IMG/VR virus record: IMGVR_UViG_3300007542_000193
Coordinates: 1 to 23,358 of that record
Direction: 5' to 3' (one strand)
Source of the DNA: a virus
DNA length: 23,358 bases
The position numbers and the translations under genes are program-made. This document shows positions 10,699-23,358 of this stretch, in pieces. Position 1 is the first letter of the stretch, and each line of letters begins with the position of its first letter. Under the pieces are notes generated by a model. The model did no database searches. It was given only the letters and a program-made list of their open reading frames with translations, and was not told the origin of the DNA.

Positions 10699-11145
10699 AT
10701 GTGGACATATAAAAACGAACCCATGGAGGCACTCTCCTCCTTTCCTCAAGGAACATATGGTTTTATTTATAGAGTTACGCACACACCTTCAAACAGAGCA
10801 TACATTGGTAAAAAAGTTCTTTACCACCAAAAGAAAAGTAAACTAACTAAAAAAGATTTACTTGAATTTGAAGGTGTATCAGGACGCCGTCCTTCCTACA
10901 AAATTGCAATGAAAGAATCTGATTGGCAAGACTATTATGGCTCCCACAAAGATATTAGAGATTTAATTGCTGAAGGAAGACAGAAAGATTTTAAACGTGA
11001 AATTTTATGTTTGGCTCCTTCAAAAAAGTTATTAACTTACTACGAGTGTAAGTATCTATTTATTTATCAGGTGTTAGAAAAACCAGATGAATTTTTTAAT
11101 GATAATATACTTGGCAAGTTTTATCGAAAAGACTTTGATTTGTAA
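10699..11145 (+). CDS. GIY-YIG nuclease-like protein, 148 aa
   Basis: The motif pair GFIY (21-24) and YIG (35-37), with R33 just before YIG, matches the GIY-YIG nuclease fold. Downstream, YYECKYLF places the metal-binding glutamate at E116, and FFNDNILG (N134/N136) gives the conserved asparagine. All the usual catalytic positions therefore appear present in a compact single-domain protein. The conserved DYYGSHKDI (78-86) is typical of a free-standing phage subgroup. There is no DNA-binding extension of the sort found in homing endonucleases, so DNA processing (repair, recombination or host DNA attack) is as likely as homing. It opens the three-gene nucleic-acid block and starts 3 bases after a structural gene. 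Confidence 0.82.
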   Translation: MWTYKNEPMEALSSFPQGTYGFIYRVTHTPSNRAYIGKKVLYHQKKSKLTKKDLLEFEGVSGRRPSYKIAMKESDWQDYYGSHKDIRDLIAEGRQKDFKREILCLAPSKKLLTYYECKYLFIYQVLEKPDEFFNDNILGKFYRKDFDL

Positions 11146-12882: not shown

Positions 12883-12896
12883 TAAACGCGCGTTTA
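12883..12896. promoter_or_regulatory. Perfect 14-bp palindrome at the start of the P-loop kinase gene
   Basis: TAAACGCGCGTTTA is a perfect palindrome whose last base is the A of the ATG at 12896. Its CGCGCG core stands out in this A+T-rich window. It extends one more pair outward (C12881/G12898) across a G-T position. It could be an operator for a dimeric repressor or, in RNA, a hairpin that hides the start codon. If translation starts at the in-frame ATG 12908 instead, the palindrome would lie wholly upstream. Confidence 0.45.
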
Positions 12897-13702
12897 TGAT
12901 TTCACTTATGGAAATTCTAAAAGAGGCATTAGGTGCCCCCAAAGCTGTCATCTTGGCTGGTGCCCCAGGTGCAGGTAAATCATCTATTGTAGGTGATATT
13001 ATTAGTGGTTTAGGTCTTAAAGTATTTAACATTGACGATGACTTTATAGCCAACTTAAAGGCATCCGGTGTATCTTTAGACCTTAAATCAGCTGATGCGG
13101 AGGGTAGAAGCAAAGCAGCTAAAGCAATGCAAGCTGCTCAAAAATCATATTCTCAAAAACTCGATCAAGAAATCGAACAACACGATGAAAACATTGTAAT
13201 TGATGGTACTGCTGCTTCATATAATAAAACTAAACAACTCAAAGAAAAGTTAGAAGCAGCTGGTTATGATGTGTTTATGGTTTATGTTTATTCATCCCTT
13301 GAAAAATCATTAAGCAAAAATAATGATCGTTTTGAACGTTCAGGTGGTGAAGATAGAAGCTTAATGCCTTCAATCGTAATGCAAACATGGGCTAACGTAA
13401 CTAAAAACTTTATTCCTTATTTAGATCTATTTGGTAACAATTTTGTAGCTACTACTAAAGATAAAAAGTTAACTGACGCTAGAGATTTAGAAGATATTAT
13501 TGATCAATATATTATTCCTTATATCCCTACTGACACTAAGGAAAAAACAGAAAAAGAAAAAGCAAGATCTGCTAAACAAAAAGAAGATCTTGAAGCTGAA
13601 GTTCGTAGCTTAATGGATAAAGAAAACGTTACTAAAGCAGTTCAACAAATCGTAAGCGCAGAAGAAGCACAACAAAAACTTAAGTCATTTTTAATATCGT
13701 GA
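12896..13702 (+). CDS. P-loop kinase, zeta-toxin/polynucleotide-kinase-like
   Basis: A Walker A motif GAPGAGKSS (22-30) follows a hydrophobic strand. NIDDDF (45-50) sits where zeta-toxin-type kinases keep substrate-binding acids; IVIDGT (100-105) is the Walker B-like strand, and the Arg-containing NNDRFERSGGEDRS (142-155) looks like the lid. The C-terminal 60 residues are charged and helical. The closest family is zeta-toxin/AAA-33-type kinases, which phosphorylate small molecules, sugars or nucleic-acid ends; the substrate cannot be told from sequence. No antitoxin gene is adjacent, so a toxin-antitoxin role is unlikely. The N-terminus (MISLMEILKEALG) is the same kind of short amphipathic helix as in several later genes. 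The start may be 12896 or 12908. It overlaps the next gene by four bases. Confidence 0.85.
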   Translation: MISLMEILKEALGAPKAVILAGAPGAGKSSIVGDIISGLGLKVFNIDDDFIANLKASGVSLDLKSADAEGRSKAAKAMQAAQKSYSQKLDQEIEQHDENIVIDGTAASYNKTKQLKEKLEAAGYDVFMVYVYSSLEKSLSKNNDRFERSGGEDRSLMPSIVMQTWANVTKNFIPYLDLFGNNFVATTKDKKLTDARDLEDIIDQYIIPYIPTDTKEKTEKEKARSAKQKEDLEAEVRSLMDKENVTKAVQQIVSAEEAQQKLKSFLIS

Positions 13703-16323
13703 ACCAATTAATTAAAGAACTTATTCGTCCTTTATTAGAAGATAGTCAAAAAGTCACTGCTGTATATGGTGGGGGCTTTAAACCACCTATCAAAGGTCAC
13801 TTTAACTTAGTAAAAACAGCATTAAAAGATTTACCTGAAATTGATGATTTTATCATTTATGTAGGTGGTGGTGTTCGTGATGGTATTACTCAAGAACAAT
13901 CAATGGCTATTTGGGGGGTATATCAAGAAGTATTAGGACCTAAAGTCCAAATTGAACCTTCTGCTCAACCTATTCGCGATGTAATGCGTTATGCTAAAGA
14001 CCATCCTAATGAAAAGGTATACTTTGTAATTGGTTATCGTGAAGGTAGAGAAGATGATTTACAAGATATTGCTTCTAGAACTAAAGGTGTTGAAGAAAAA
14101 TACCCTAATCTGGAAGTTAAAGTAATAAGCACCCCAGACCCTGAAGTTAGTGGTACAAATGCTCGTAAAGCAGCATCAAAAGGAGATAAAGAAAAGTTTA
14201 TAACATTCCTCCCAGATGAAGTTCCACCAAGTGAAAAAGAAGAAATATACAATATTGTAGATAAATCTATTCTTAAAGAACATATGGCTCATACTAATAC
14301 AATTGATATCATTGGAAAATGTGCTCAATTAAGTAACCATATGATTCAAAAAGGGTATAAAATTCAACCTTTACCTGGCCTCAAGGTTATAGACAGTGAC
14401 GTAGATAACTCACAAGATTTCTTCGGTAAAACCGCATACTACGATCCTAACGAGCAACTTATTGTCTTATATACTCAAGGGCGTCATCCCAAAGATATTG
14501 TGCGTTCTTATGCGCATGAAATGATTCATCACATCCAAAATCTAGAAGATAGATTAGGTAATATTCAAACTACAAACACTACTGAGGATGATCACTTAGA
14601 TAATATTGAAAGAGAAGCATACGAGGAAGGTAATATCGCTTTTAGAAATTGGACTGATAGTTTACAAGAAGGTCTTTATGATGATACTAAAAGTTTTGAC
14701 TTAGTAAAACAGAACCCATTTGATATTAAAAAACTAGCCGATAAAGGTATAGTATTTATTACCAAACCCGGTGATGGTAAAGGTGGTGTTGCCGACCCAA
14801 ATTGGGAAGGCGATGCTAGCGTTCTTACTTCATACAATATGGATAAAGCTGAACCTTGGATGAAGGTAGCAGTAAAAAATCTAATGCCTCAAGCTATTCC
14901 ATACATCCAAAAAGACCAAGATAAATTATTTTACAACGGAAAGTATAATCAAATACTTTGGGGTATTGAGAAAAAAGGACTTAATCCTGAAGACTTTTAC
15001 TTACAGGAAGGAAAAGATCCATTTGGTTTGAATCAATACGCTCGTGAATTAGCTCAAGGTTTAGAAGAAGTATTAACAGAAGGTCGTTACGATAAATTCA
15101 CTAACGAGCTTTCTCGTTTAGCATTTGAGTTAATCAAAGACGGCTACGATGTAGGTCGTAAAGTAGTAGACGAAACATTTGTAGTAGGGCCTGCAGATGA
15201 AGACCCAGATATTGTTTCTAATGATTTTGAATTTGACTTTACAATTCAAGCCACCTATACAGAAGACACTTACACAGTAGATGGAGGAGCAAATGCAGGA
15301 TATGATGATGAAGGAGATGAAATTACCCCTTTACTTAATGTTCGCTTTGAAATTCCAAAAGATGTAGATTGGCAAGAAGTATCATTTGATTTAAAAGACG
15401 TTATTCGACACGAACTTGAACATTTAACCCAAGATGGTGCTAACGTACGCAGTGGGAAGCAATTAGTAGATGATTCAATAATTCGTAAGATGATTGAATT
15501 AGGTTTACTCCCTAAAGCAGATTACTTTAAATTAGCTAAAGAAGTAGATGCTATGTTGCAAGGAATGTACTTTAAAGCAAAAAAAGCAAGAAAACCATTC
15601 TTAGATATCATAAACACTTACTTAGATAAACAACCCATCAACCCAGAAGAAAAAAAAGAAATTATTAATTTATGGGCTAAAAGAGTAAAAGCTTTAGGTT
15701 TACCTTCACTTGAAAGTGCCTCCGTAAAAGAAACCACGTACCTTGAAGATACGGGTGTTGAAAAAAAGGATGAAAAGGGGGGAGAGATGAGAGGGAAAAA
15801 ATTCGTGATATTCTGTGACATGGATGGTGTATTAGTAGACTTTGATGAAGGATACAAGCAATTAACTGGTATGTCTACTCAACACGTTAATGCTCAAGAC
15901 AAATCAAATTTTTGGAAAGCGTTTAGACAGGGATTAGTAGACAAAGATATTAGTGAAGAATCATTTTGGACTAACTTAGATTGGCAACCTGGCGGAAAGG
16001 AATTATGGGACTATATTGCTCCTTACAAACCATATGTTTTAACAGCCCCTGCTGTAAACTTTGACCTCCCAGATGACCAAAGGTATTCTCAAGAATACAA
16101 TGAGTCGATGAAAGGTAAATTAAATTGGGTTCAACGTTTACCTAATATGCGCAAAGTATATTTTGCAGCAGCTAAAAATAAACCTAAATTCGCTCGCCCA
16201 AACCATATTTTAATTGATGATAGAAAAGACACTATTGACGCATGGAATGCTAATGGTGGAATTGGCATATTATATCAATCAGCACAACAAGTTATAGAAG
16301 ATTTAAAAGAATTAGGTTTATGA
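13699..16323 (+). CDS. Multi-enzyme protein: nucleotidyltransferase, two HExxH modules, HAD nucleotidase
   Basis: An 874-residue protein starting at GTG 13699, which overlaps the previous stop (GTGA). Residues 1-14 are a short helix ending in PLLE. Residues about 20-175 form a cytidylyltransferase-like (NMNAT/HxGH superfamily) domain: GGGFKPPIKGH (24-34), with Ile where the first His of HxGH is expected, and SGTNAR (151-156). Residues about 195-320 hold AHEMIHH (H273, E274, H277) with a downstream EREAYEEG that may give the third zinc ligand: a metallopeptidase-like module. Residues about 325-460 are an unassigned module. Residues about 462-665 hold a second HExxH, RHELEH (571-575). Residues about 701-874 are a HAD 5'(3')-deoxyribonucleotidase-like domain: CDMDGVLVDF (D707, D709), TAP (T782), LIDDR (D840, D841). 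Modules are separated by (L/I)xE sites (E194, E324, E437, E461). Possibly a capsid-packaged polyprotein. Confidence 0.88.
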   Translation: MNQLIKELIRPLLEDSQKVTAVYGGGFKPPIKGHFNLVKTALKDLPEIDDFIIYVGGGVRDGITQEQSMAIWGVYQEVLGPKVQIEPSAQPIRDVMRYAKDHPNEKVYFVIGYREGREDDLQDIASRTKGVEEKYPNLEVKVISTPDPEVSGTNARKAASKGDKEKFITFLPDEVPPSEKEEIYNIVDKSILKEHMAHTNTIDIIGKCAQLSNHMIQKGYKIQPLPGLKVIDSDVDNSQDFFGKTAYYDPNEQLIVLYTQGRHPKDIVRSYAHEMIHHIQNLEDRLGNIQTTNTTEDDHLDNIEREAYEEGNIAFRNWTDSLQEGLYDDTKSFDLVKQNPFDIKKLADKGIVFITKPGDGKGGVADPNWEGDASVLTSYNMDKAEPWMKVAVKNLMPQAIPYIQKDQDKLFYNGKYNQILWGIEKKGLNPEDFYLQEGKDPFGLNQYARELAQGLEEVLTEGRYDKFTNELSRLAFELIKDGYDVGRKVVDETFVVGPADEDPDIVSNDFEFDFTIQATYTEDTYTVDGGANAGYDDEGDEITPLLNVRFEIPKDVDWQEVSFDLKDVIRHELEHLTQDGANVRSGKQLVDDSIIRKMIELGLLPKADYFKLAKEVDAMLQGMYFKAKKARKPFLDIINTYLDKQPINPEEKKEIINLWAKRVKALGLPSLESASVKETTYLEDTGVEKKDEKGGEMRGKKFVIFCDMDGVLVDFDEGYKQLTGMSTQHVNAQDKSNFWKAFRQGLVDKDISEESFWTNLDWQPGGKELWDYIAPYKPYVLTAPAVNFDLPDDQRYSQEYNESMKGKLNWVQRLPNMRKVYFAAAKNKPKFARPNHILIDDRKDTIDAWNANGGIGILYQSAQQVIEDLKELGL

Positions 16324-16892
16324 AAGATAATGTTTTAAAAAAACAATTTCAAGAAAAAGACATTCAACGTGTTAGAAATTTAGTACAAGGTAAACATGGT
16401 AGTAAAACTACTATAGGTACGGGTTATACTAAACAAACTGAATTTTACACTGAGGGTGATATTTGGGAAGAAGATGGTCGTCAATGGACTATTAAAGATG
16501 GTATCAAACAAAACATTACTAAACTAGATAAAGCGAAAGAGGCAATTAATATGCCTTTATTTTGTCCTTCTTGTAATAAAGTAATGAAACATAAACTTGA
16601 TAAACCTTTTTATTTACAATATAAACGTTGTTGGAATTGTCAAATTGAATTTGAAACCGAACTTCGTACATTAGGTCTTTGGGAAGAATATGAAAAAAAT
16701 ATAATTAATTCCGATATAGATAATATGATTAAAGATTTTGAAATTTGGGTTGATGAATCTTTAAATGAATCTAATCAAAGTTTTGTTACTGAAGCTGGGG
16801 ATGTAGAAAAGTGGGTAGGGTCTAATAAAAATAAACTTCTTGAATCTAAAGAAGAAACCATTAAATACTTACAAAGTTTAAAGAAAACTTAA
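16320..16892 (+). CDS. Zinc-ribbon phage protein, 190 aa
   Basis: Overlaps the preceding stop by four bases (ATGA). Two CxxC knuckles, CPSC (82-85) and CWNC (104-107), about 19 residues apart, form a zinc ribbon. Before it, residues 38-70 (EGDIWEEDGRQWTIKDGIKQ) are a conserved stretch I recall from many environmental T4-like phage proteins of unknown function. After it is a helical tail with SLNE (147-150) and FVTE (155-158), which resemble prohead-protease sites. Zinc ribbons often bind nucleic acid, but the protein could equally be structural; no enzymatic residues are visible. It ends at an AATATTTATA motif, so it is probably the last gene of its transcription group. Confidence 0.85.
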   Translation: MKDNVLKKQFQEKDIQRVRNLVQGKHGSKTTIGTGYTKQTEFYTEGDIWEEDGRQWTIKDGIKQNITKLDKAKEAINMPLFCPSCNKVMKHKLDKPFYLQYKRCWNCQIEFETELRTLGLWEEYEKNIINSDIDNMIKDFEIWVDESLNESNQSFVTEAGDVEKWVGSNKNKLLESKEETIKYLQSLKKT

Positions 16893-16900
16893 TATTTATA
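16891..16900 (+). promoter_or_regulatory. Intergenic AATATTTATA motif, copy 3
   Basis: Identical to the 10-mer at 12871 and again overlapping the TAA stop (16890-16892). It ends 13 bases before the ATG at 16914; an A-tract (16901-16906) follows. Confidence 0.45.
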
Positions 16901-16913
16901 AAAAAACTGCATT

Positions 16914-17444
16914 ATGGGATTTGATACTAATAAATGGCTTAAAAACCAACTTTTAAAAGAAGCAGGACTTCTTAATGAAGTATCTGAACTTAGTTTAGCT
17001 ATAGGAGATGTCATTCCTGAAGATACTTCATATTCTGATTTTGCTAAAGCTGTAGCTTTTATTTTAAAAGAAGATTACGGCTCTCAAAATTTTGGTCCTT
17101 TTATGAAAGTACTCCATGCTGAATTAGGCATAGAAGAATCTGTAAATGAAGTTAAAGACGATTACTACCCAGACTCACCTGAAGCTCTTTCAGCTGCTAC
17201 AGTTAAAGCAAGAGAAATCTTAGACAAACATAAAGAAAGTATTAAAACTATTGCTAACAAATACGAGGGTCAAGCTAACAAATCAATGGAAATGCAAAAA
17301 GAGCTTAATGCTTTAGTTGACGCTGATTTAGAAGGTTTACCATTTAAACAATATGTTTCTGATAAAGTTAAAGGTACTTTAGGTAAAGCATTGTTCCGTT
17401 ATTATGCTTCAAAAAATCCCGAATTAGCTAAAATGATGAAATAA
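16914..17444 (+). CDS. Helical phage protein with prohead-targeting-like N-terminus, 176 aa
   Basis: I do not recognise a named family. The protein is alpha-helical and charged with no Cys and no membrane segment. The first 25 residues (WLKNQLLKEAGLLNEVSE) form a short amphipathic helix with LxE sites at E16 and E22, like neighbouring genes. A middle section (SYSDFAKAVAFILKEDYGSQ, then FGPFMKVLHAELGI) looks like a compact helical domain. A C-terminal section (residues about 85-176) ends in KGTLGKALFRYYASKNPELA. Its stop shares a base with the next ATG (TAATG). It is first after an intergenic motif, so possibly the start of a transcript with the next two genes. A capsid-internal or assembly role is inferred from context. 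Confidence 0.85.
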   Translation: MGFDTNKWLKNQLLKEAGLLNEVSELSLAIGDVIPEDTSYSDFAKAVAFILKEDYGSQNFGPFMKVLHAELGIEESVNEVKDDYYPDSPEALSAATVKAREILDKHKESIKTIANKYEGQANKSMEMQKELNALVDADLEGLPFKQYVSDKVKGTLGKALFRYYASKNPELAKMMK

Positions 17445-18451
17445 TGGAAGACTTAAAAAAAATACAAGAATTCTTTTCTAAACCTTTAGACGAAAACAGA
17501 AAACTAACCTTTAACGACTTTGTTCGAATGGTTAGAGACGATATGATGGCTGGCTCTGCACCTGATGAAAGACCAAGTGAAGAACTAGTAGGAAAGCGTG
17601 CTAAAGCTTACTACAATGATTATTTACAAGGTGCAGATGTAGATAGTATGTTCGAAAATGTAAACGAAATTAGTAAAGAAGATGCTTGGAAAGAATTCCA
17701 AGAAAAAAGACACGTTACAGATAAAACTGCAGCTGCTGCTAAAAAAGACTTTGATAAAGGTTGGGAAGAGGGTAAATTTAGAGATGGTAAATACATGTCT
17801 ATGGAAGAAGCTGAAACAAACATATCAAATGACATTCCAGATATTATAGCTGTAGACGTTCCTTTATTTATTCGTTTACTCGAATTTGCTAGAGAAGACT
17901 CAGAAAACGATTTAGACTTACACGATGTAGCTGAACGTGCTATTGAAGCAGTTAAGATGAGAGGTGTGTTATCAATGGATGATTATGAAACATTAATCCC
18001 ACCTAAAGATGAATTAGATGAAGTTCGTTTAGTCCCTAAAGACCAAATTGAAGCTATTGCAGCTAAATTAGCAGCTCAAGTTTTTTCTAAAAAACAAAAT
18101 TTAAAACCTGCTATTGATATCTTAAAAAAAGCAGTTGAAGATTCTTATAGAGCTTTAGACCCAAATGTTGAAATTAAAGAAGAAGAAGGATACTCAAAAT
18201 ACTTAAAAGACGATCCTGAATTCCCAGGTGGTAAAACTAAAGGCCTTACCCCAGATACCCTAAATAAAATCTTAATGAAAATTGTTAAAGATATAGATGA
18301 AACTAAACAATTAGGTGAAGGTATAATCGAAGAAGATTTATGTCCAAAAGGTAAAGCATACATTAAAAAGAGAATGGCTGCGGGCGAAAAATCATCCGCC
18401 TACCTTTCAGGTCGTGCTGTTAAGGTATGTAAAGGTCAAATGAAAGGATGA
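17444..18451 (+). CDS. Charged helical phage protein with C-terminal CPKGKAYIKKR motif, 335 aa
   Basis: The start overlaps the previous stop by one base. The N-terminus, KKIQEFFSKPLDE (5-17), resembles T4 internal-protein capsid-targeting peptides (which contain QEFIAE) and has IxE and LxE sites at E9 and E17. Residues about 75-125 are a charged segment rich in Lys/Glu/Ala, 130-175 a helical domain, and 200-290 another. The C-terminus, CPKGKAYIKKRMAAGEKSSA followed by YLSGRAVKVCKG (C300-G331), is a strongly patterned small motif with two cysteines that I recall from many environmental phage proteins; it is basic and may bind metal or DNA. No enzyme motif was found. It overlaps the next gene by four bases; the next protein has a related basic, two-cysteine character. 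Confidence 0.85.
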   Translation: MEDLKKIQEFFSKPLDENRKLTFNDFVRMVRDDMMAGSAPDERPSEELVGKRAKAYYNDYLQGADVDSMFENVNEISKEDAWKEFQEKRHVTDKTAAAAKKDFDKGWEEGKFRDGKYMSMEEAETNISNDIPDIIAVDVPLFIRLLEFAREDSENDLDLHDVAERAIEAVKMRGVLSMDDYETLIPPKDELDEVRLVPKDQIEAIAAKLAAQVFSKKQNLKPAIDILKKAVEDSYRALDPNVEIKEEEGYSKYLKDDPEFPGGKTKGLTPDTLNKILMKIVKDIDETKQLGEGIIEEDLCPKGKAYIKKRMAAGEKSSAYLSGRAVKVCKGQMKG

Positions 18452-18738
18452 CACACGAACGTCTACAAGAAATAATTCAAGAATCTCTCCGCGATTGGTT
18501 CAAAAAAGAAGAGTGGGTGAGAATTGATACGGCTGGTAATATTACCGGCCCTTGTGGTACTATGAAAAAAGGCGATGCTACAACACGTTGTTTGCCTAAG
18601 AAAAAAGCTCAATCACTAACTAAAGCAGAAAGAGCTAAAACATCTCGCAAAAAAGCAGCTGCGTCTCGTAAAGGAAAACAATTTGTTTCCAATACTAACA
18701 AAGCTAAGTATAAAAAGGGTACGTATCACAAAAAATAA
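18448..18738 (+). CDS. Small basic phage protein, DUF5872-like, 96 aa
   Basis: The N-terminal helix HERLQEIIQESLRDWFKKE is followed by WVRIDTAGNITGPCGTMKKG (23-42) and ATTRCLPKKKAQSLTKAERA (44-63), with C36 and C48. This pattern corresponds, from memory, to the DUF5872 family found in phages and some bacteria. The rest is strongly basic (RKKAAASRKGKQF, AKYKKGTYHKK), so nucleic-acid binding is likely, perhaps to packaged DNA or in the prohead core. It overlaps the preceding stop by four bases, and that gene ends with another basic two-cysteine motif, so the pair may act together. AAAGG lies just before the ATG, too close for a normal Shine-Dalgarno. LxE/IxE sites occur at E8 and E12. Confidence 0.85.
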   Translation: MTHERLQEIIQESLRDWFKKEEWVRIDTAGNITGPCGTMKKGDATTRCLPKKKAQSLTKAERAKTSRKKAAASRKGKQFVSNTNKAKYKKGTYHKK

Positions 18739-18739
18739 C

Positions 18740-18748
18740 ATATTTATT
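18740..18748 (+). promoter_or_regulatory. Intergenic ATATTTATT motif, copy 4 (one mismatch)
   Basis: ATATTTATT lies just after the TAA stop at 18736-18738 and 22 bases before the next ATG. It differs from the consensus ATATTTATA in the last base only; a further ATATATT lies at 18751. Confidence 0.35.
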
Positions 18749-18762
18749 ACATATATTCAAAC

Positions 18763-18774
18763 TCATTGCAATGA
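18763..18774. promoter_or_regulatory. Perfect 12-bp palindrome embedding a start codon
   Basis: TCATTGCAATGA is a perfect palindrome that contains the ATG at 18771-18773. It resembles the arrangement at 12883-12896, where another palindrome ends in the start codon. Operator or start-masking hairpin is possible; function is inference. Confidence 0.35.
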
Positions 18775-19682
18775 AAAAATCTGAATTAAAAGAAATGATT
18801 AAAGCAGCTTTTATGGCTGAAGGGAACTATGACGAAGTAGAAGCCGCCCAAAAACGCGCTGGAGATACTACTAATAGTAAGTTCCATAAAGATTTAGACA
18901 AATATAAAACATCATCTAACTATGGCTCTACTAGAGTTGGAGAAGGAGAAGAAGATCTTGACGAAATGTTAGCTCGTCTTTCTGAGGAAGAAGTTGAAGA
19001 AGTAGTAGCTGAAGCTAAAGAAGAAGAACTCGAAGCCGACCTCGAAGCAGACATTGATACTCCTGAAGGTGACGAAGAAGTAGATGTTGAAGTTGACGCT
19101 AAAGAAAAACCAGCTAATGACTCAATCGTAATTGATAAAAAAATCGTTTCATTATCATCACTCCCAGGCGAAACAAGAAAAATCTTAGATACACTTGAAA
19201 CTTTAAGAGCACAAGCTGAAGAGTTTGGTGATCAAAAATTTATCACTCAAGTTGGTAACACAATCACTTTCTTTACTCGCGATTTCGTAGTTGCAGGTGA
19301 TGCACCAAATCCAGCAGGCATTGAAGAAGAAATTGGAGATGATTCAAACACAGTTGAAGATGAAGCTGGCTTAGGTCTTGAAGAAATTCAAAGATGGAAA
19401 AAACTAGCAGGTATAGCAGAAATAGAACTTCCAGCTAACATTAGAAATAAAGCTAATATAGAAGTAAAAGATGCTGCTACTATGGCAAAATCATTATTAG
19501 ATCTTTATCAACAAATTCAAGATAAAGAACAAGTTAATTTCTCACAAAACAATGATTTTAAAATTGCTTTAACTTATCTTAAAAAACTTGCTAAAAACGT
19601 TAAAGGTAAAGAAGCACCAACTCAAGACGATACTACTGATATGACTATGGATATGGATGTAGATGTAGCTACTACAAAATAA
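18771..19682 (+). CDS. Acidic helical protein, possible prohead core/scaffold-like, 303 aa
   Basis: The N-terminus LKEMIKAAFMAE (6-17), then G, is the clearest example in this window of an amphipathic helix followed by a possible prohead-protease site. Residues 59-112 are extremely acidic (SEEEVEEVVAEAKEEELEAD and similar). Residues about 115-175 form a mixed domain (IVSLSSLPGETRKILDTLET, then FFTRDFVV). Residues 204-216 hold an EEIQRWKKLAGI motif that I recall near termini of other phage head proteins. The C-terminal 80 residues are helical and end in an acidic, Met-rich tail. The strongly acidic composition and the N-terminal peptide resemble scaffold or internal core proteins of T4-like proheads; this is inference. 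It starts inside a palindrome and downstream of an ATATTTATT motif. Confidence 0.87.
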   Translation: MKKSELKEMIKAAFMAEGNYDEVEAAQKRAGDTTNSKFHKDLDKYKTSSNYGSTRVGEGEEDLDEMLARLSEEEVEEVVAEAKEEELEADLEADIDTPEGDEEVDVEVDAKEKPANDSIVIDKKIVSLSSLPGETRKILDTLETLRAQAEEFGDQKFITQVGNTITFFTRDFVVAGDAPNPAGIEEEIGDDSNTVEDEAGLGLEEIQRWKKLAGIAEIELPANIRNKANIEVKDAATMAKSLLDLYQQIQDKEQVNFSQNNDFKIALTYLKKLAKNVKGKEAPTQDDTTDMTMDMDVDVATTK

Positions 19683-19701
19683 TTAAATAAAATCTATAAA
19701 A

Positions 19702-19872
19702 ATGGAATCAAACGAAATCTATAAGCAAATGGCCGATTTATGGGTCGAGTTCTCAACTGAACATTCAAAAACATCAAAAGCAGCACATGGACGCGCTCGT
19801 AAAGCTTTAGGCACAATCAAAACGCTTATCAAAGAATACAGAGCTGCTTCGATTGCCGAAGATAAAAAATAA
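19702..19872 (+). CDS. Histone H1-like (Hc1-type) small DNA-binding protein, 56 aa
   Basis: A 56-residue gene starting at ATG 19702 and ending at TAA 19870-19872, exactly filling the space between its neighbours (19 bases after one stop, 1 base before the next ATG). The protein contains SKAAHGRARKALGTIKTLIK followed by EYR (26-48). This matches from memory the K.A.G.R.RK.L..I..L..E.R pattern of the Hc1 histone H1-like family, common in Bacteroidota and chlamydiae and also in some phages. It is basic in the middle, helical and without Cys. A likely role is DNA compaction, in the capsid or in the infected cell. Upstream is AATCTATAAAA without a Shine-Dalgarno. Family assignment is fairly confident; function in the phage is inferred. 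Confidence 0.8.
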   Translation: MESNEIYKQMADLWVEFSTEHSKTSKAAHGRARKALGTIKTLIKEYRAASIAEDKK

Positions 19873-19873
19873 T

Positions 19874-21121
19874 ATGCTCAACGAAAAAAAACTTTCAAAA
19901 GCTGAATTAGCAAAACGCGAAGAGCTTATCACAAAGATGAAGCCAAACAAGCGTAACTTAGTTAAAAAATATGGTGCTGACGCTGAGAAAGTAATGTATG
20001 GTCGCGCAACTAACATGGCAAAAAAATTAGCTGAACAAGACATGGAACAGAATAAATTAAGAGAAATGGTTAAAGCTGCTTTAATGCAACCAATGGCCGA
20101 GAAAAAAGAATTTCCTGATTTAACTGGTGACGGTAAAGTGACCAAAGCAGACATCCTTAAAGGTAGAGGTGTTATTGATGAGTTAGAACAAGCTGTTGTT
20201 TTAACAGACAAAGACCATGAAAACCTTATGAAAAACGGCTCAGTAGCTGTTAATGTAGGTGGTCAAACAATAATCGTAGCTCTTAAAGACTTTTCTATTG
20301 ATTTAGAAGATGCTGATTACGAAGACCCATACTTAGACGAAGACATCGATTTAGGTCATCAAGACAACGAACCACACATGATCAAAGCTGAGTTATACCG
20401 TATTGGAAAATACGCTATGGAGCTTTACCAAATGTTAGATGGCTTTGAAGGTGAAGCAGAAGTTGACTTCCCAGCTTGGTGGCAAGCTAAACTCACAACA
20501 GCCATGAACAACATGGTTTCAGCTAAACATTATCTTGATTTTGAAATCAAAGAACCAGAAATCGACGCCGCAGTAAACGCTATGACAGGTGAAGAACCTG
20601 AAATGGAACCAGAAATGGAACCACAAGTAATGACTGTTGACTTAGTAGGTGACGAAGACGAAATCGAAGAAGGTTTACCTAAAGGATATTGGTCTAAAAA
20701 AATCGAAGGTGGTGTAGACGAAGCTGTTACTTCTGATTTTGAAGAAAGAATTGATCAGATAGTAAATCATTATTTTAAAGGAGATCAAGAAGTAAAAAAA
20801 GCAGCTATAGAATATGCAAGCATTAAAGGTGCTAGAGTAATGGGCGGATTGTCTTCTACAGCTTCTCTCTTTAAAGACTTCTATAACCAATATAGTGATG
20901 AAGTAGCCAATCAAGCTATGGAAGTAATTGATATGGCTAACGATGATGTATACTTCGAAGAAAAAGAAACAGCTGAATTAGACGAATCATTCGCTAAGCT
21001 TGTTAGTAAATTAGAAAAGCAAGGTAAATCAGAAAAAGCAGCTAAAGCAATCGCTGGTGCAGTAGCAGCTTACAAAGCAAAAGGCGGCGGTAAAGGTCCA
21101 ACAGCTAAACAGAAAAAATAA
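19874..21121 (+). CDS. Multi-module phage protein with EF-hand-like loop, 415 aa
   Basis: ATG 19874 is chosen because it follows the Hc1-like stop by one base; a TTG at 19853 would overlap that gene. Residues 10-55 (REELITKMKPNKRNLVKKYG, then MYGRATNMAKKLAE) are a basic helical module seen in many environmental phage proteins. Residues 62-76 (LREMVKAALMQPMAE) repeat the helix seen at the N-terminus of the 303-residue protein. DLTGDGKVTKAD (82-93) has the spacing of an EF-hand/dockerin calcium loop. Residues about 165-225 (YRIGKYAMELYQMLDGFEGE, FPAWWQAKL, SAKHYLDFEI) are a conserved helical domain. There is an EMEPEMEP repeat near 242-249, a helical module at 286-362, and a basic C-terminus (KAIAGAVAAYKAKGGGK). 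Probably a head-internal or structural protein built from reused modules. Its last base starts the next gene (TAATG). Confidence 0.87.
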   Translation: MLNEKKLSKAELAKREELITKMKPNKRNLVKKYGADAEKVMYGRATNMAKKLAEQDMEQNKLREMVKAALMQPMAEKKEFPDLTGDGKVTKADILKGRGVIDELEQAVVLTDKDHENLMKNGSVAVNVGGQTIIVALKDFSIDLEDADYEDPYLDEDIDLGHQDNEPHMIKAELYRIGKYAMELYQMLDGFEGEAEVDFPAWWQAKLTTAMNNMVSAKHYLDFEIKEPEIDAAVNAMTGEEPEMEPEMEPQVMTVDLVGDEDEIEEGLPKGYWSKKIEGGVDEAVTSDFEERIDQIVNHYFKGDQEVKKAAIEYASIKGARVMGGLSSTASLFKDFYNQYSDEVANQAMEVIDMANDDVYFEEKETAELDESFAKLVSKLEKQGKSEKAAKAIAGAVAAYKAKGGGKGPTAKQKK

Positions 21122-21636
21122 TGACCAAAGCAGAACTAAGAGATAAGATCAAACTTTTAGTTAAAACGGTTTATGGTGAAAAAAAGCTCGTAGACATCAC
21201 CGCAGAAAAATACGACGAACTCACCAAATTCCCTGAACTAAAAGACGTAATTGTAGACCTACTCGGTCCACAATTCGATGTATTCTTAGCTTCAATTGAT
21301 TGGGTAGCTCCTAAACCAACTACATTCCGTATCAACCTTAAAAACGGCGAAAACTTTTATTTAGTCTATAACGAAAGAAGTTGGGTAGCTGAGGTTGAAG
21401 GAAAAAAATACTATCTTCTTAATTTAAACGAAGAAGAAAATGCTACTAATGCTATTTCTCGTATTTTAAGATACGGAGCTCCTAACATTATGGGCGAACA
21501 AGACGCTGCTGAATTTTCTACAGGCAGTGGAGGCGAATTCCCAGGTGGAGAAGGTGGTGGTAGTGCAGAAACTGCTGCTTCTGGAACTGAAACTACTGAT
21601 GTAACCGTAGACACTGAAACTGAAACAGAAGCCTAA
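21121..21636 (+). CDS. Conserved phage protein with Gly/Thr-rich tail, 171 aa
   Basis: It begins one base inside the preceding stop (TAATG) and ends the same way with the next gene. The N-terminal helix (KAELRDKIKLLVKTVYGE) matches the amphipathic leader seen in neighbours but lacks a good LxE site. Residues 45-105 (DLLGPQFDVFLASIDWVAPK, PTTFRINLKNGENFYLVY, KKYYLLNL) form a compact alpha/beta domain known to me from environmental phage genomes without a function. The last 45 residues are low-complexity Gly, Ser, Thr and Glu, likely a flexible acidic tail. No catalytic motif is evident. The tight coupling suggests it is made together with the 415- and 373-residue proteins, probably as part of the same head-related set. 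Confidence 0.87.
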   Translation: MTKAELRDKIKLLVKTVYGEKKLVDITAEKYDELTKFPELKDVIVDLLGPQFDVFLASIDWVAPKPTTFRINLKNGENFYLVYNERSWVAEVEGKKYYLLNLNEEENATNAISRILRYGAPNIMGEQDAAEFSTGSGGEFPGGEGGGSAETAASGTETTDVTVDTETETEA

Positions 21637-22757
21637 TGGACGTTTTTGATAAATTTTTCCGTAAGTTTGCTTACAAGTTCGATAAAGGATATCCTGACAT
21701 GAAAAATGAACAGGATATTCTTTTACTTGAATCATTATTAAGTAAACTAATAGGTGAAAATATTTCAATTATATCTGAAGCTGAAGATGCTGAAGAAGCA
21801 ATTGATATTATTAAAGCTAGATTAGAATTAAAAGATGAAGATTTCCTTAAACAATCTTCTTCTACTTATAAAATTCTAGTCCCTCGTTCAGAAAGATATG
21901 ATTATGTTACTAAATTAAATTCACTCGAAGGATTTGAATATGACCCTAACATGTCAGGATCTTCTATTGGAGGAGTAAGATATAAAACAGCTAAATTCTT
22001 ACTTAAACCTTCAGGTGCACAAGGTAGAGCATCAGCTGGAACTGAAAATGAAGACATTATAGCAAATGAACTAAATAATCTTTTAGCAGATGGTCCTAAA
22101 AATGTAGTATTTGTAGCTCCTAATAAAAATTATGTAACTAGAAGCGTTAAAGAAGTTACTACAGTTGGATATGATGTAGCAGGAGGTAAAAAAGCTGATA
22201 TTGTATTAAATGGAGATAAAGATTATCCTATCTCAATTAAAAAAGACAATGCTGCTTTCTGGGAAAGTTCAGATACTCGTTATAAAGATGTTGTAGCTAA
22301 ACTTTCAAAGAAAATTAAAAATGGAGATTTTGCTCCTGAATTAATATTTAAACCTTTTGTAGATAAATTAGGATACAAAAAGGAAGGTATTAATGTTATG
22401 TATAATGAAACTACTGATCAACCTGTAACTGGAGTTATTGTAACTGATCTTCCAGCAAAAGATGAACAATCTATTATATTTGGTTCTGATAATGCTGTAG
22501 TAGTTTATAGAACTTTTACACCAAATGATTTTAATTTAGAAGGTGATACTATTAGAATTGAAGTTTCTAAAATTATTGAAAATTTAGCAGATGTAGAAGA
22601 ATTTAATTTAGAACCTGTTCTTAATATTAGACATGACTCAACAAGAACTGCTACAGGTGGTTTAAGAGCAACTGTCCAACCCGAAGATAAATTATATAGG
22701 GATGGTGAATTAACAGGTAATAAAATTGAAATTCCGTACGATAAAATAATGTCTTAA
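21636..22757 (+). CDS. Probable PD-(D/E)XK nuclease-like phage protein, 373 aa
   Basis: The N-terminal helical part (KFFRKFAYKFDKGYPDMKNE, then QDILLLESLLSKLIGE) ends with IISE (45-48) before an acidic helix, a possible prohead-protease site. Residues about 75-125 are a small alpha/beta module. A helix with E137/E139 (GTENEDIIANELNNLL) is followed by a strand pair KKADIVLNGDKDYPISIKKD containing D188 and K202/K203. This spacing is that of the restriction-endonuclease fold (E...D...xIK), although Ser200 stands where an acidic residue is usual. The C-terminal half (residues about 230-373) is beta-rich and unassigned. It may therefore be a structure-derived or active nuclease carried in the virion; activity is uncertain. 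Start ATG overlaps the previous TAA; Met22 is an alternative start. Confidence 0.82.
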   Translation: MDVFDKFFRKFAYKFDKGYPDMKNEQDILLLESLLSKLIGENISIISEAEDAEEAIDIIKARLELKDEDFLKQSSSTYKILVPRSERYDYVTKLNSLEGFEYDPNMSGSSIGGVRYKTAKFLLKPSGAQGRASAGTENEDIIANELNNLLADGPKNVVFVAPNKNYVTRSVKEVTTVGYDVAGGKKADIVLNGDKDYPISIKKDNAAFWESSDTRYKDVVAKLSKKIKNGDFAPELIFKPFVDKLGYKKEGINVMYNETTDQPVTGVIVTDLPAKDEQSIIFGSDNAVVVYRTFTPNDFNLEGDTIRIEVSKIIENLADVEEFNLEPVLNIRHDSTRTATGGLRATVQPEDKLYRDGELTGNKIEIPYDKIMS

Positions 22758-22765
22758 TATTTATA
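22756..22765 (+). promoter_or_regulatory. Intergenic AATATTTATA motif, copy 5
   Basis: Identical 10-mer to those at 12871 and 16891, again overlapping the TAA stop (22755-22757). Only GAT separates it from the ATG at 22769, which is too close for a normal leader if this is a -10 element. Confidence 0.45.
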
Positions 22766-22768
22766 GAT

Positions 22769-23358
22769 ATGTGTAGCTGTGGATGTGGAACTTGTAGTGC
22801 TTCAAAGCCTGTAGTGTTAAACGAAAGTTTAGCGCCAAAAGAAATCCTTTCTGAAGGATTAAAATTTCACTTAGATAACGCACGACCTCTTACTGAGCAT
22901 GTATATCGCGCTGGTTCTGAAAAGTATTTTAATTTATGGGCAGAAGCCCGCGCTTTATATAGCCGCAATATTATTGAAGTACAAGGTGCTGATTTAGAGG
23001 TATTAACAGAAACAGATCTTGGTCACTTTGCATTAGTTGAAGGTGTTCAAGTTCCTTTAGATTTTCCTATTGAACTTAACGAACTCGAAACTGAAGAATT
23101 TTTAGCTGCAGTTGAAGACGAATTTGATAAAGAGACGTTAGAATTAATGAAGCAAGTGATCGAAAAAAGATTAGGCTTCCTTAATAAAGCTCTTGATATA
23201 TCTAATCCTAGAAATGTAGTTAAAGGATATTTAGGTCATTTATCGGAAGATCAAATTAAATTTGTCCACGAAGAAGTAAAGAAAAAAATTGGTAAACCAA
23301 TGCGTTCTGCCTCAGGTGGTAAAGCTTATAAAGTATACGTTCGTGATCCTAAAACCAA
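22769..23358 (+). CDS. Cys-rich-leader phage structural-type protein, 3'-truncated
   Basis: An open frame from ATG 22769 to the window end, 196 complete codons without a stop. The start MCSCGCGTCS has four cysteines in nine residues (C2, C4, C6, C9), a compact metal-binding or disulfide cluster unlike anything else here. It is followed by LNESLAPKEILSE (17-29), with LxE sites at E19 and E29. Then comes LKFHLDNARPLTEHVYRAGS with EKYFNLWAEARALY, and a VLTETDLG..VPLDFPIEL segment, a domain that I recall from T4-like environmental phage genomes, usually listed as virion or unknown. The later part (NPRNVVKGYLGHLSEDQIKF, KMRSASGGKAYKVYV-like end) is helical and basic. Function unknown; a head-associated role fits its neighbours and leader. 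Confidence 0.82.
   Translation, partial: MCSCGCGTCSASKPVVLNESLAPKEILSEGLKFHLDNARPLTEHVYRAGSEKYFNLWAEARALYSRNIIEVQGADLEVLTETDLGHFALVEGVQVPLDFPIELNELETEEFLAAVEDEFDKETLELMKQVIEKRLGFLNKALDISNPRNVVKGYLGHLSEDQIKFVHEEVKKKIGKPMRSASGGKAYKVYVRDPKT

Follow-up and report, generated by a model that had tools for sequence, protein, structure and literature searches.

What is the role of the short amphipathic leaders that begin gene after gene in this phage fragment? The window, by which we mean the whole 23,358-base stretch analysed, comes from a T4-like marine phage and carries tail genes, a DnaG-type primase, and an exonuclease, followed by the block in question (nt. 12896–23358; all window features described below lie on the + strand). 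A near-identity DNA search of phages with the window gave no match. The closest relative in culture to be found was Flavobacterium phage immuto (host Flavobacterium sp. LMO8), with which the window shares synteny. In immuto, the counterpart of the block lies just upstream of the genes for the terminase, portal, prohead protease (gp070), a scaffold-like protein, and a gp23-type capsid protein. A gp21-type protease and prohead core genes are annotated adjoining the block in immuto and are also present in the metagenomic relative G002. Given that the window ends before the head genes, genome-wide tests were placed in immuto and three metagenomic relatives, G001, G002, and G003 (~120 kb). Gene starts in the metagenomic relatives were taken from a simple gene caller and some are misplaced, errors that would mostly mask leaders. 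Pfam and NCBIfam searches were uninformative for most block proteins. Elsewhere in the window, nt. 10699–11145 match a PHROG family named 'NAD synthetase', probably a propagated misannotation; the encoded sequence (YGFIYRVTHTP...AYIGKK) resembles a GIY-YIG nuclease.

The T4 capsid-targeting sequence, known from a handful of proteins, is the obvious point of reference. The T4 leaders (GenBank NC_000866) read MKTYQEFIAE/A in IPII and IPIII, MAKINELLRE/S in gp24, and MELITELFDE in Alt (slashes, here and below, mark actual or candidate cut sites). The first ten residues of IPIII suffice for packaging, with positions 4 and 7 mattering for targeting and positions 8 and 10 for processing, and gp21 cleaves after L/I-x-E (PMC9026906). 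The first gene of the block in the window encodes a zeta-toxin-like P-loop kinase (nt. 12896–13702; Pfam PF06414, E = 1.3e-15), a proposed head cargo, which starts with MISLMEILKE/A (nt. 12896–12925), a leader of the same shape as those of IPIII and gp24. Across 40 dereplicated orthologs, Leu4 and Glu10 are each found in 40/40, Leu or Ile occupies positions 7 and 8, and positions 5, 6, 9, and 12–14 are variable. As position 2 (Ile) and largely position 3 (Ser) are conserved too, positions 4, 7, 8, and 10 are not the only constrained ones in this leader.

The first-pass annotation had proposed that one shared pattern, L-x-(E/D)-h-h-K/R-x-x-L/F (h, hydrophobic), runs through the block as a capsid-targeting code. 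In the four long relatives, this pattern matches 1/122 proteins of the head block and 1/537 others (3/122 and 3/537 in a relaxed form, p = 0.08), so it cannot mark out the block and was dropped as a discriminator. With the T4 rule, fixed in advance from T4 as hydrophobic residues at positions 4, 7, and 8 plus Glu at position 10, we noted matches in 8/122 head-block versus 5/537 other proteins (p = 6e-4). The protease motif [LI]xE[GAS], with its Glu at residues 6–30, is found in 42 of 119 block proteins (35%) versus 26 of 500 in the rest (5%; p = 9.6e-17); part of this excess is expected, since some of the block's head proteins correspond to T4 proteins that are cut. No block excess was present for the Asp, Lys, Gln, and Asn versions of the motif over the same residues, nor for the motif itself at residues 65–89. 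The N-terminal excess is significant in each of the four genomes (p = 6e-7, 5e-5, 6e-6, and 0.013) and with homologues collapsed to families (27/72 versus 24/310, p = 2e-9). Matches outside the block include leader-like genes and a few metabolic proteins, the latter apparently by chance. In these relatives, leaders of the T4-rule and cleavage-motif kinds are thus far less common in the rest of the genome than in the head block, and the even spread that the first-pass annotation named as refuting was not seen.

By sequence, the leaders in this phage group fall into at least four interchangeable classes, plus a longer module on gene 21636: class A (MKKSxLxxxIKEAL), class B (MIxLxxILxE), class C (MDNFDLKKYLAEGKLLKE), and class D (MKKQILSEQFxRMQxLAGIITE). 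Class B, to which the leader of the window kinase belongs, conforms to the T4 rule, with hydrophobic residues at 4, 7, and 8 and Glu at 10, while the other three are longer variants. Seeds chosen by eye underlie the class profiles, whose hit counts serve as a description of the classes; the statistical tests, the swap search excepted, are independent of them. One protein of the baseplate region has a class A-like helix too (MKPSELKSFIKEAVREAIQEEL), so class A is not head-specific by itself. In an all-against-all comparison of N-termini, a clear head-block excess was seen in G002 only, with a weaker one in G001, and the similar-leader pairs of immuto and G003 lie partly outside the block as defined; given this patchy result, the analysis turned to motif statistics and leader swaps. 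What stands of the original proposal is its capsid-targeting reading, with several leader classes taking the place of a single shared code.

The leader sequences quoted in the first-pass annotation were all found at ORF starts, except for LREMVKAALMQPMAE, which forms residues 62–76 of ORF 19874–21121; as a set they are uneven, those at nt. 17444 and 21121 being weak. The large multi-enzyme gene (nt. 13699–16323) opens with MNQLIKELIRPLLE/D (nt. 13699–13740), and similar but variable leaders are present in most of its orthologs. The next gene (nt. 16320–16892) encodes a conserved block protein with no recognisable leader, as judged from ortholog N-termini. It is followed by a class C-like leader of the form F[DN]xxxW...L.E, MGFDTNKWLKNQLLKE/AG (nt. 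16914–16961), for which ortholog leaders read MSFNVHKWNKRRYLAEAG and MSNFDIYKWNRERHLIEA; a related protein in L044 carries the class B leader MKLTDIILQE. The weak candidate MEDLKKIQEFFSKPLDE/N (nt. 17444–17494) is kept in orthologs in L003 and G001, with no swap seen. A basic protein (nt. 18448–18738) bears the class A-like leader MTHERLQEIIQE/S (nt. 18448–18483), with the cut motif at residue 12 and the PHROG match beginning at residue 13; its orthologs in G001 and G002 have leaders too. The class A leader MKKSELKEMIKAAFMAE/G (nt. 18771–18821) on an acidic protein (nt. 18771–19682) matches the class A profile, for which it also served as a seed, and leaders similar to it occur on unrelated proteins in immuto.

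Further downstream, a 56-a.a. Hc1 histone H1-like protein (nt. 19702–19872; Pfam PF07432, 37.6 bits versus a cut-off of 23.5) has no leader. The class A-like segment LREMVKAALMQPMAE/K (nt. 20057–20101) is internal to its ORF, for which the orthologs favour ATG 19874 as the start. The class A-like N-terminal helix MTKAELRDKIKLLVKTV (nt. 21121–21171; MKKSELREKIKLLVKTVY in orthologs) has no obvious cut site, and its conservation runs straight into the next domain. Gene 21636 starts with a module of ~48 a.a., MDVFDKFFRKFAYKFDKGYPD...LLLESLLSKLIGENISIISE/A (nt. 21636–21779), of which residues 1–43 have 86% identity in L037, with no detectable similarity from residue 56 onwards; the same holds in L040. 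The final protein, truncated at the window end, has the N-terminus MCSCGCGTCSASKPVVLNESLAPKEILSE/G (nt. 22769–22855); the orthologs in immuto and G003 begin with MIRLQEIVG and MIKLTEVLG instead, and that in L032 has an extra class A leader.

The strongest evidence that the leaders may form a functional module is their exchange. We found seven cases of leader-class exchange on orthologous cargo. The kinase carries a class B leader in most relatives and a class C leader in five (e.g., L017 and L022), with one B/C pair sharing 91.5% identity after the leader. Further swaps on homologous cargo involve classes A and C (75.6% identity), B and C (51% and 39%), A and B (40%), and C and D (65%), and a DUF5872-like protein shows an A/B swap at 57–65%. 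The same leader also precedes unrelated mature parts, as had been proposed from the window. Among the loci compared, class C stands on 29 families, and a class C pattern scan returned at least 103 distinct proteins, with ~41 unrelated cargo families among the matches listed, a family count that is at the high end, as some short proteins could be distantly related. In G002, six class C genes lie in tandem with one more nearby, and these seven copies vary in synonymous codons (GAC/GAT, TTT/TTC, AGA/CGC) with the peptide kept. At L191:8865 (+), a class C leader at the protein start runs straight into one of class B (MDNFDLKKYLAEGKLSKENKMIKLTDLINESIAG), and phage HTVC008M has a P-loop protein with its own leader, MIPFILKE.

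Two further groups of leader-bearing proteins were noted in passing. Class B leaders precede GxGxxGxV-type loop proteins resembling protein kinases in immuto (gp093, L082:13367–13807) and at L005:20453–20968; a Pfam search of these two proteins gave no match. In G003 (the L044 contig), at ~68.6–71.7 kb with the primase on the + strand, four near-tandem paralogs start with MIKL[IL]D[IL]LENKILVPRRS, which are class B-like leaders, and contain LRR-like repeats (ITSLPQGLTVGG...), distant from the head block.

The multi-enzyme protein (874 a.a.) is probably a polyprotein: a single leader would serve to package the whole chain, and cuts in the linkers would set the enzymes apart. It comprises an NMNAT/nucleotidyltransferase fold (residues 16–189), an HExxH-containing domain (residues 202–319), a second HExxH-type domain (residues 463–672), and a 5'(3')-deoxyribonucleotidase (residues 700–874), based on PHROG, AlphaFold, and Foldseek. 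In the AlphaFold model, four regions are ordered and residues 320–461 form a disordered linker (nt. 14656–15081; pLDDT <50), with a mean pLDDT of 72.7 and a pTM of 0.35 for the whole protein, and Foldseek matched NadD/CoaD adenylyltransferases (probability 1.00) and HAD phosphatases. The GGFKPPxxGH nucleotide-binding motif is near-invariant in the NMNAT-like domain. No sequence-family match was found for the HExxH domains, which we do not claim as proven peptidases. All three strict [LI]xE[GAS] sites in the protein fall within the linker, giving the candidate cut sites SLQE/G (E324), YLQE/G (E437), and VLTE/G (E461). Across 22 orthologs, 39 cut motifs lie in linkers (~10 expected) and 6 in domains (~26 expected), a bias that is suggestive only, given that the Asp control is mildly enriched in linkers as well (2.4-fold, against 3.7-fold for the Glu motif) and the orthologs are not independent. 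Immuto encodes the nucleotidase on its own, in a gene that has the leader MKKVMGNLADLLLE. Of 66 NMNAT orthologs, ~10 lack a leader and begin with the enzyme domain itself.

Virion data were available by proxy from related cyanophages; no virion proteomics or cleavage data for the window phage or immuto were found. Members of the Kyanoviridae have a comparable block (kinase, NMNAT-like protein, and nucleotidase) with leaders of its own, such as MKKFSEIIE and MQGFKTFLSE in phage Melnitz; in phages XacN1 and CcrRogue, the nucleotidase homologues have nothing ahead of the enzyme domain. For S-CREM2, published mass spectrometry covers the virion (PMC10665884, Table 3), with the authors cautioning that detection may reflect co-purification. 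T4-rule leaders are present on 5 of the 26 non-structural virion proteins of this phage versus 2 of 142 undetected proteins (p = 0.001): a SAM hydrolase (MKDFDSFLEE), an APH-like kinase ((V/M)KRFDAFLTE), a cytidylyltransferase (MKNFSSFLTE), gp13 (MKDLHSFLTE), and gp136 (MQTFSMFFSE). NMNAT-like proteins were detected in the virions of S-SZBM1 and S-SCSM1, with the N-termini MRFRQFIIE/A and MKSFLQFLKE/A, respectively, and 7/9 of genes 89–97 in S-SCSM1 are marked as virion proteins. Two other virion proteins drew our attention: the small S-SCSM1 gp93 (L253:36627–36836), whose C-terminus (RTFKEFLEYIE) resembles a T4-type targeting sequence, and the Cas9-like nuclease gp12 of S-CREM2 (L130:7704–10313), with a leader-like LRFASFMAE/A ~17 residues from its start.

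Together, these lines of evidence (the T4-rule positions, protease-motif statistics, leader swaps, head-gene adjacency, and cyanophage virion mass spectrometry) make a capsid-targeting propeptide system a well-supported interpretation. The leaderless NMNAT orthologs and the class A-like helix in the baseplate region count against it. On balance, we consider it likely that the leaders are T4-type capsid-targeting propeptides, in at least four interchangeable classes, which would be removed by a gp21-like cut and whose cargo would be delivered with the DNA. Under this scheme, the short amphipathic leader would bind the prohead core and draw its cargo in during head assembly, as homology and the motif statistics suggest for the window phage. 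A gp21-like prohead protease would then cut after the Glu of the [L/I]-x-E motif, a step indicated by the motifs themselves, freeing the mature enzyme within the head. The 874-a.a. protein would enter as one chain with one leader before its linkers are cut. On the precedent of T4, the freed enzymes may leave the head with the DNA and act in the host, on NAD and nucleotide metabolism or as kinases.

Several other roles for the leaders can be envisaged. They might be docking helices that bind the scaffold or one another, on proteins that serve as assembly chaperones or core components, and stay uncut and absent from the mature virion. Some block proteins are indeed acidic with repeats in common with the scaffold (G002 genes 70 and 98), and the cut sites of the leaders are candidates read from motifs; however, the block excess is specific to the cleavage motif, with none for the Asp or Gln versions, and the virions of cyanophages contain NMNAT-like proteins that bear T4-type leaders, making this an unlikely account. 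Alternatively, the leaders may be generic amphipathic N-terminal helices, or reflect AT-rich composition at translation starts, with no targeting role, in keeping with the lack of enrichment of the exact pattern proposed earlier and with the similar helix in the tail region. This reading was already disfavoured and we regard it as very improbable, given that near-identical 18-residue leaders stand on unrelated proteins with synonymous variation between copies, that classes are swapped, and that the motif excess is specific to Glu and missing at internal positions.

The tandem cargo genes of G002, sharing the same start, also raise the prospect that the leader DNA is mainly a recombination handle for exchanging cargo genes, with the peptide secondary. 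We give this even less credence, since the residues persist where the copies differ synonymously, and leaders unrelated in sequence are exchanged on the same cargo. Returning to the capsid-targeting propeptides, we also lean, with less assurance, towards their forming a modular cargo code in marine T4-like flavophages, whereby interchangeable propeptides would address dozens of cargo families to the head, including a polyprotein matured by the prohead protease, for delivery to the host. If so, virion cargo would be predictable from sequence. The lack of kinship among the mature parts of injected effectors makes them difficult to spot; if the leaders act as in T4, such effectors could be listed from genomes by leader and cut site. 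The system would also help explain why NMNAT-like enzymes and kinases recur in the virion proteomes of cyanophages, and work on head loading would gain several new packaging tags. A metabolic-enzyme polyprotein cut by the prohead protease would be unusual in a tailed phage.

A search of the literature on capsid-targeting leaders turned up T4, P1, and giant phages but no marine T4-like phage. An N-terminal signal or propeptide for head packaging is known from the capsid localisation of P1 DarB and the ejection proteins of SPN3US (PMC9024508, PMC7411985), as proposed here, although these belong to different phage groups and the SPN3US propeptides exceed 100 residues. Closer to the window phage, the cyanophages S-CREM2, S-SZBM1, and S-SCSM1 carry, in a similar gene block, NMNAT-like cargo behind T4-type leaders, which differ in sequence from those described here (MKxFxxFLxE); no mention of leaders was found in the papers reporting their mass spectrometric detection. 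The resemblance to T4 IPI, IPII, IPIII, and Alt lies in a short N-terminal hydrophobic segment ending in L/I-x-E, matched by class B at positions 4, 7, 8, and 10, in mature parts that are unrelated to one another, and in T4-type head genes close by. Packaging and cleavage are experimental findings in T4 and predictions from sequence here, where, unlike in T4, the cargo comprises enzymes and a probable polyprotein, and a single phage group uses several sequence-distinct leader classes on dozens of cargo families.
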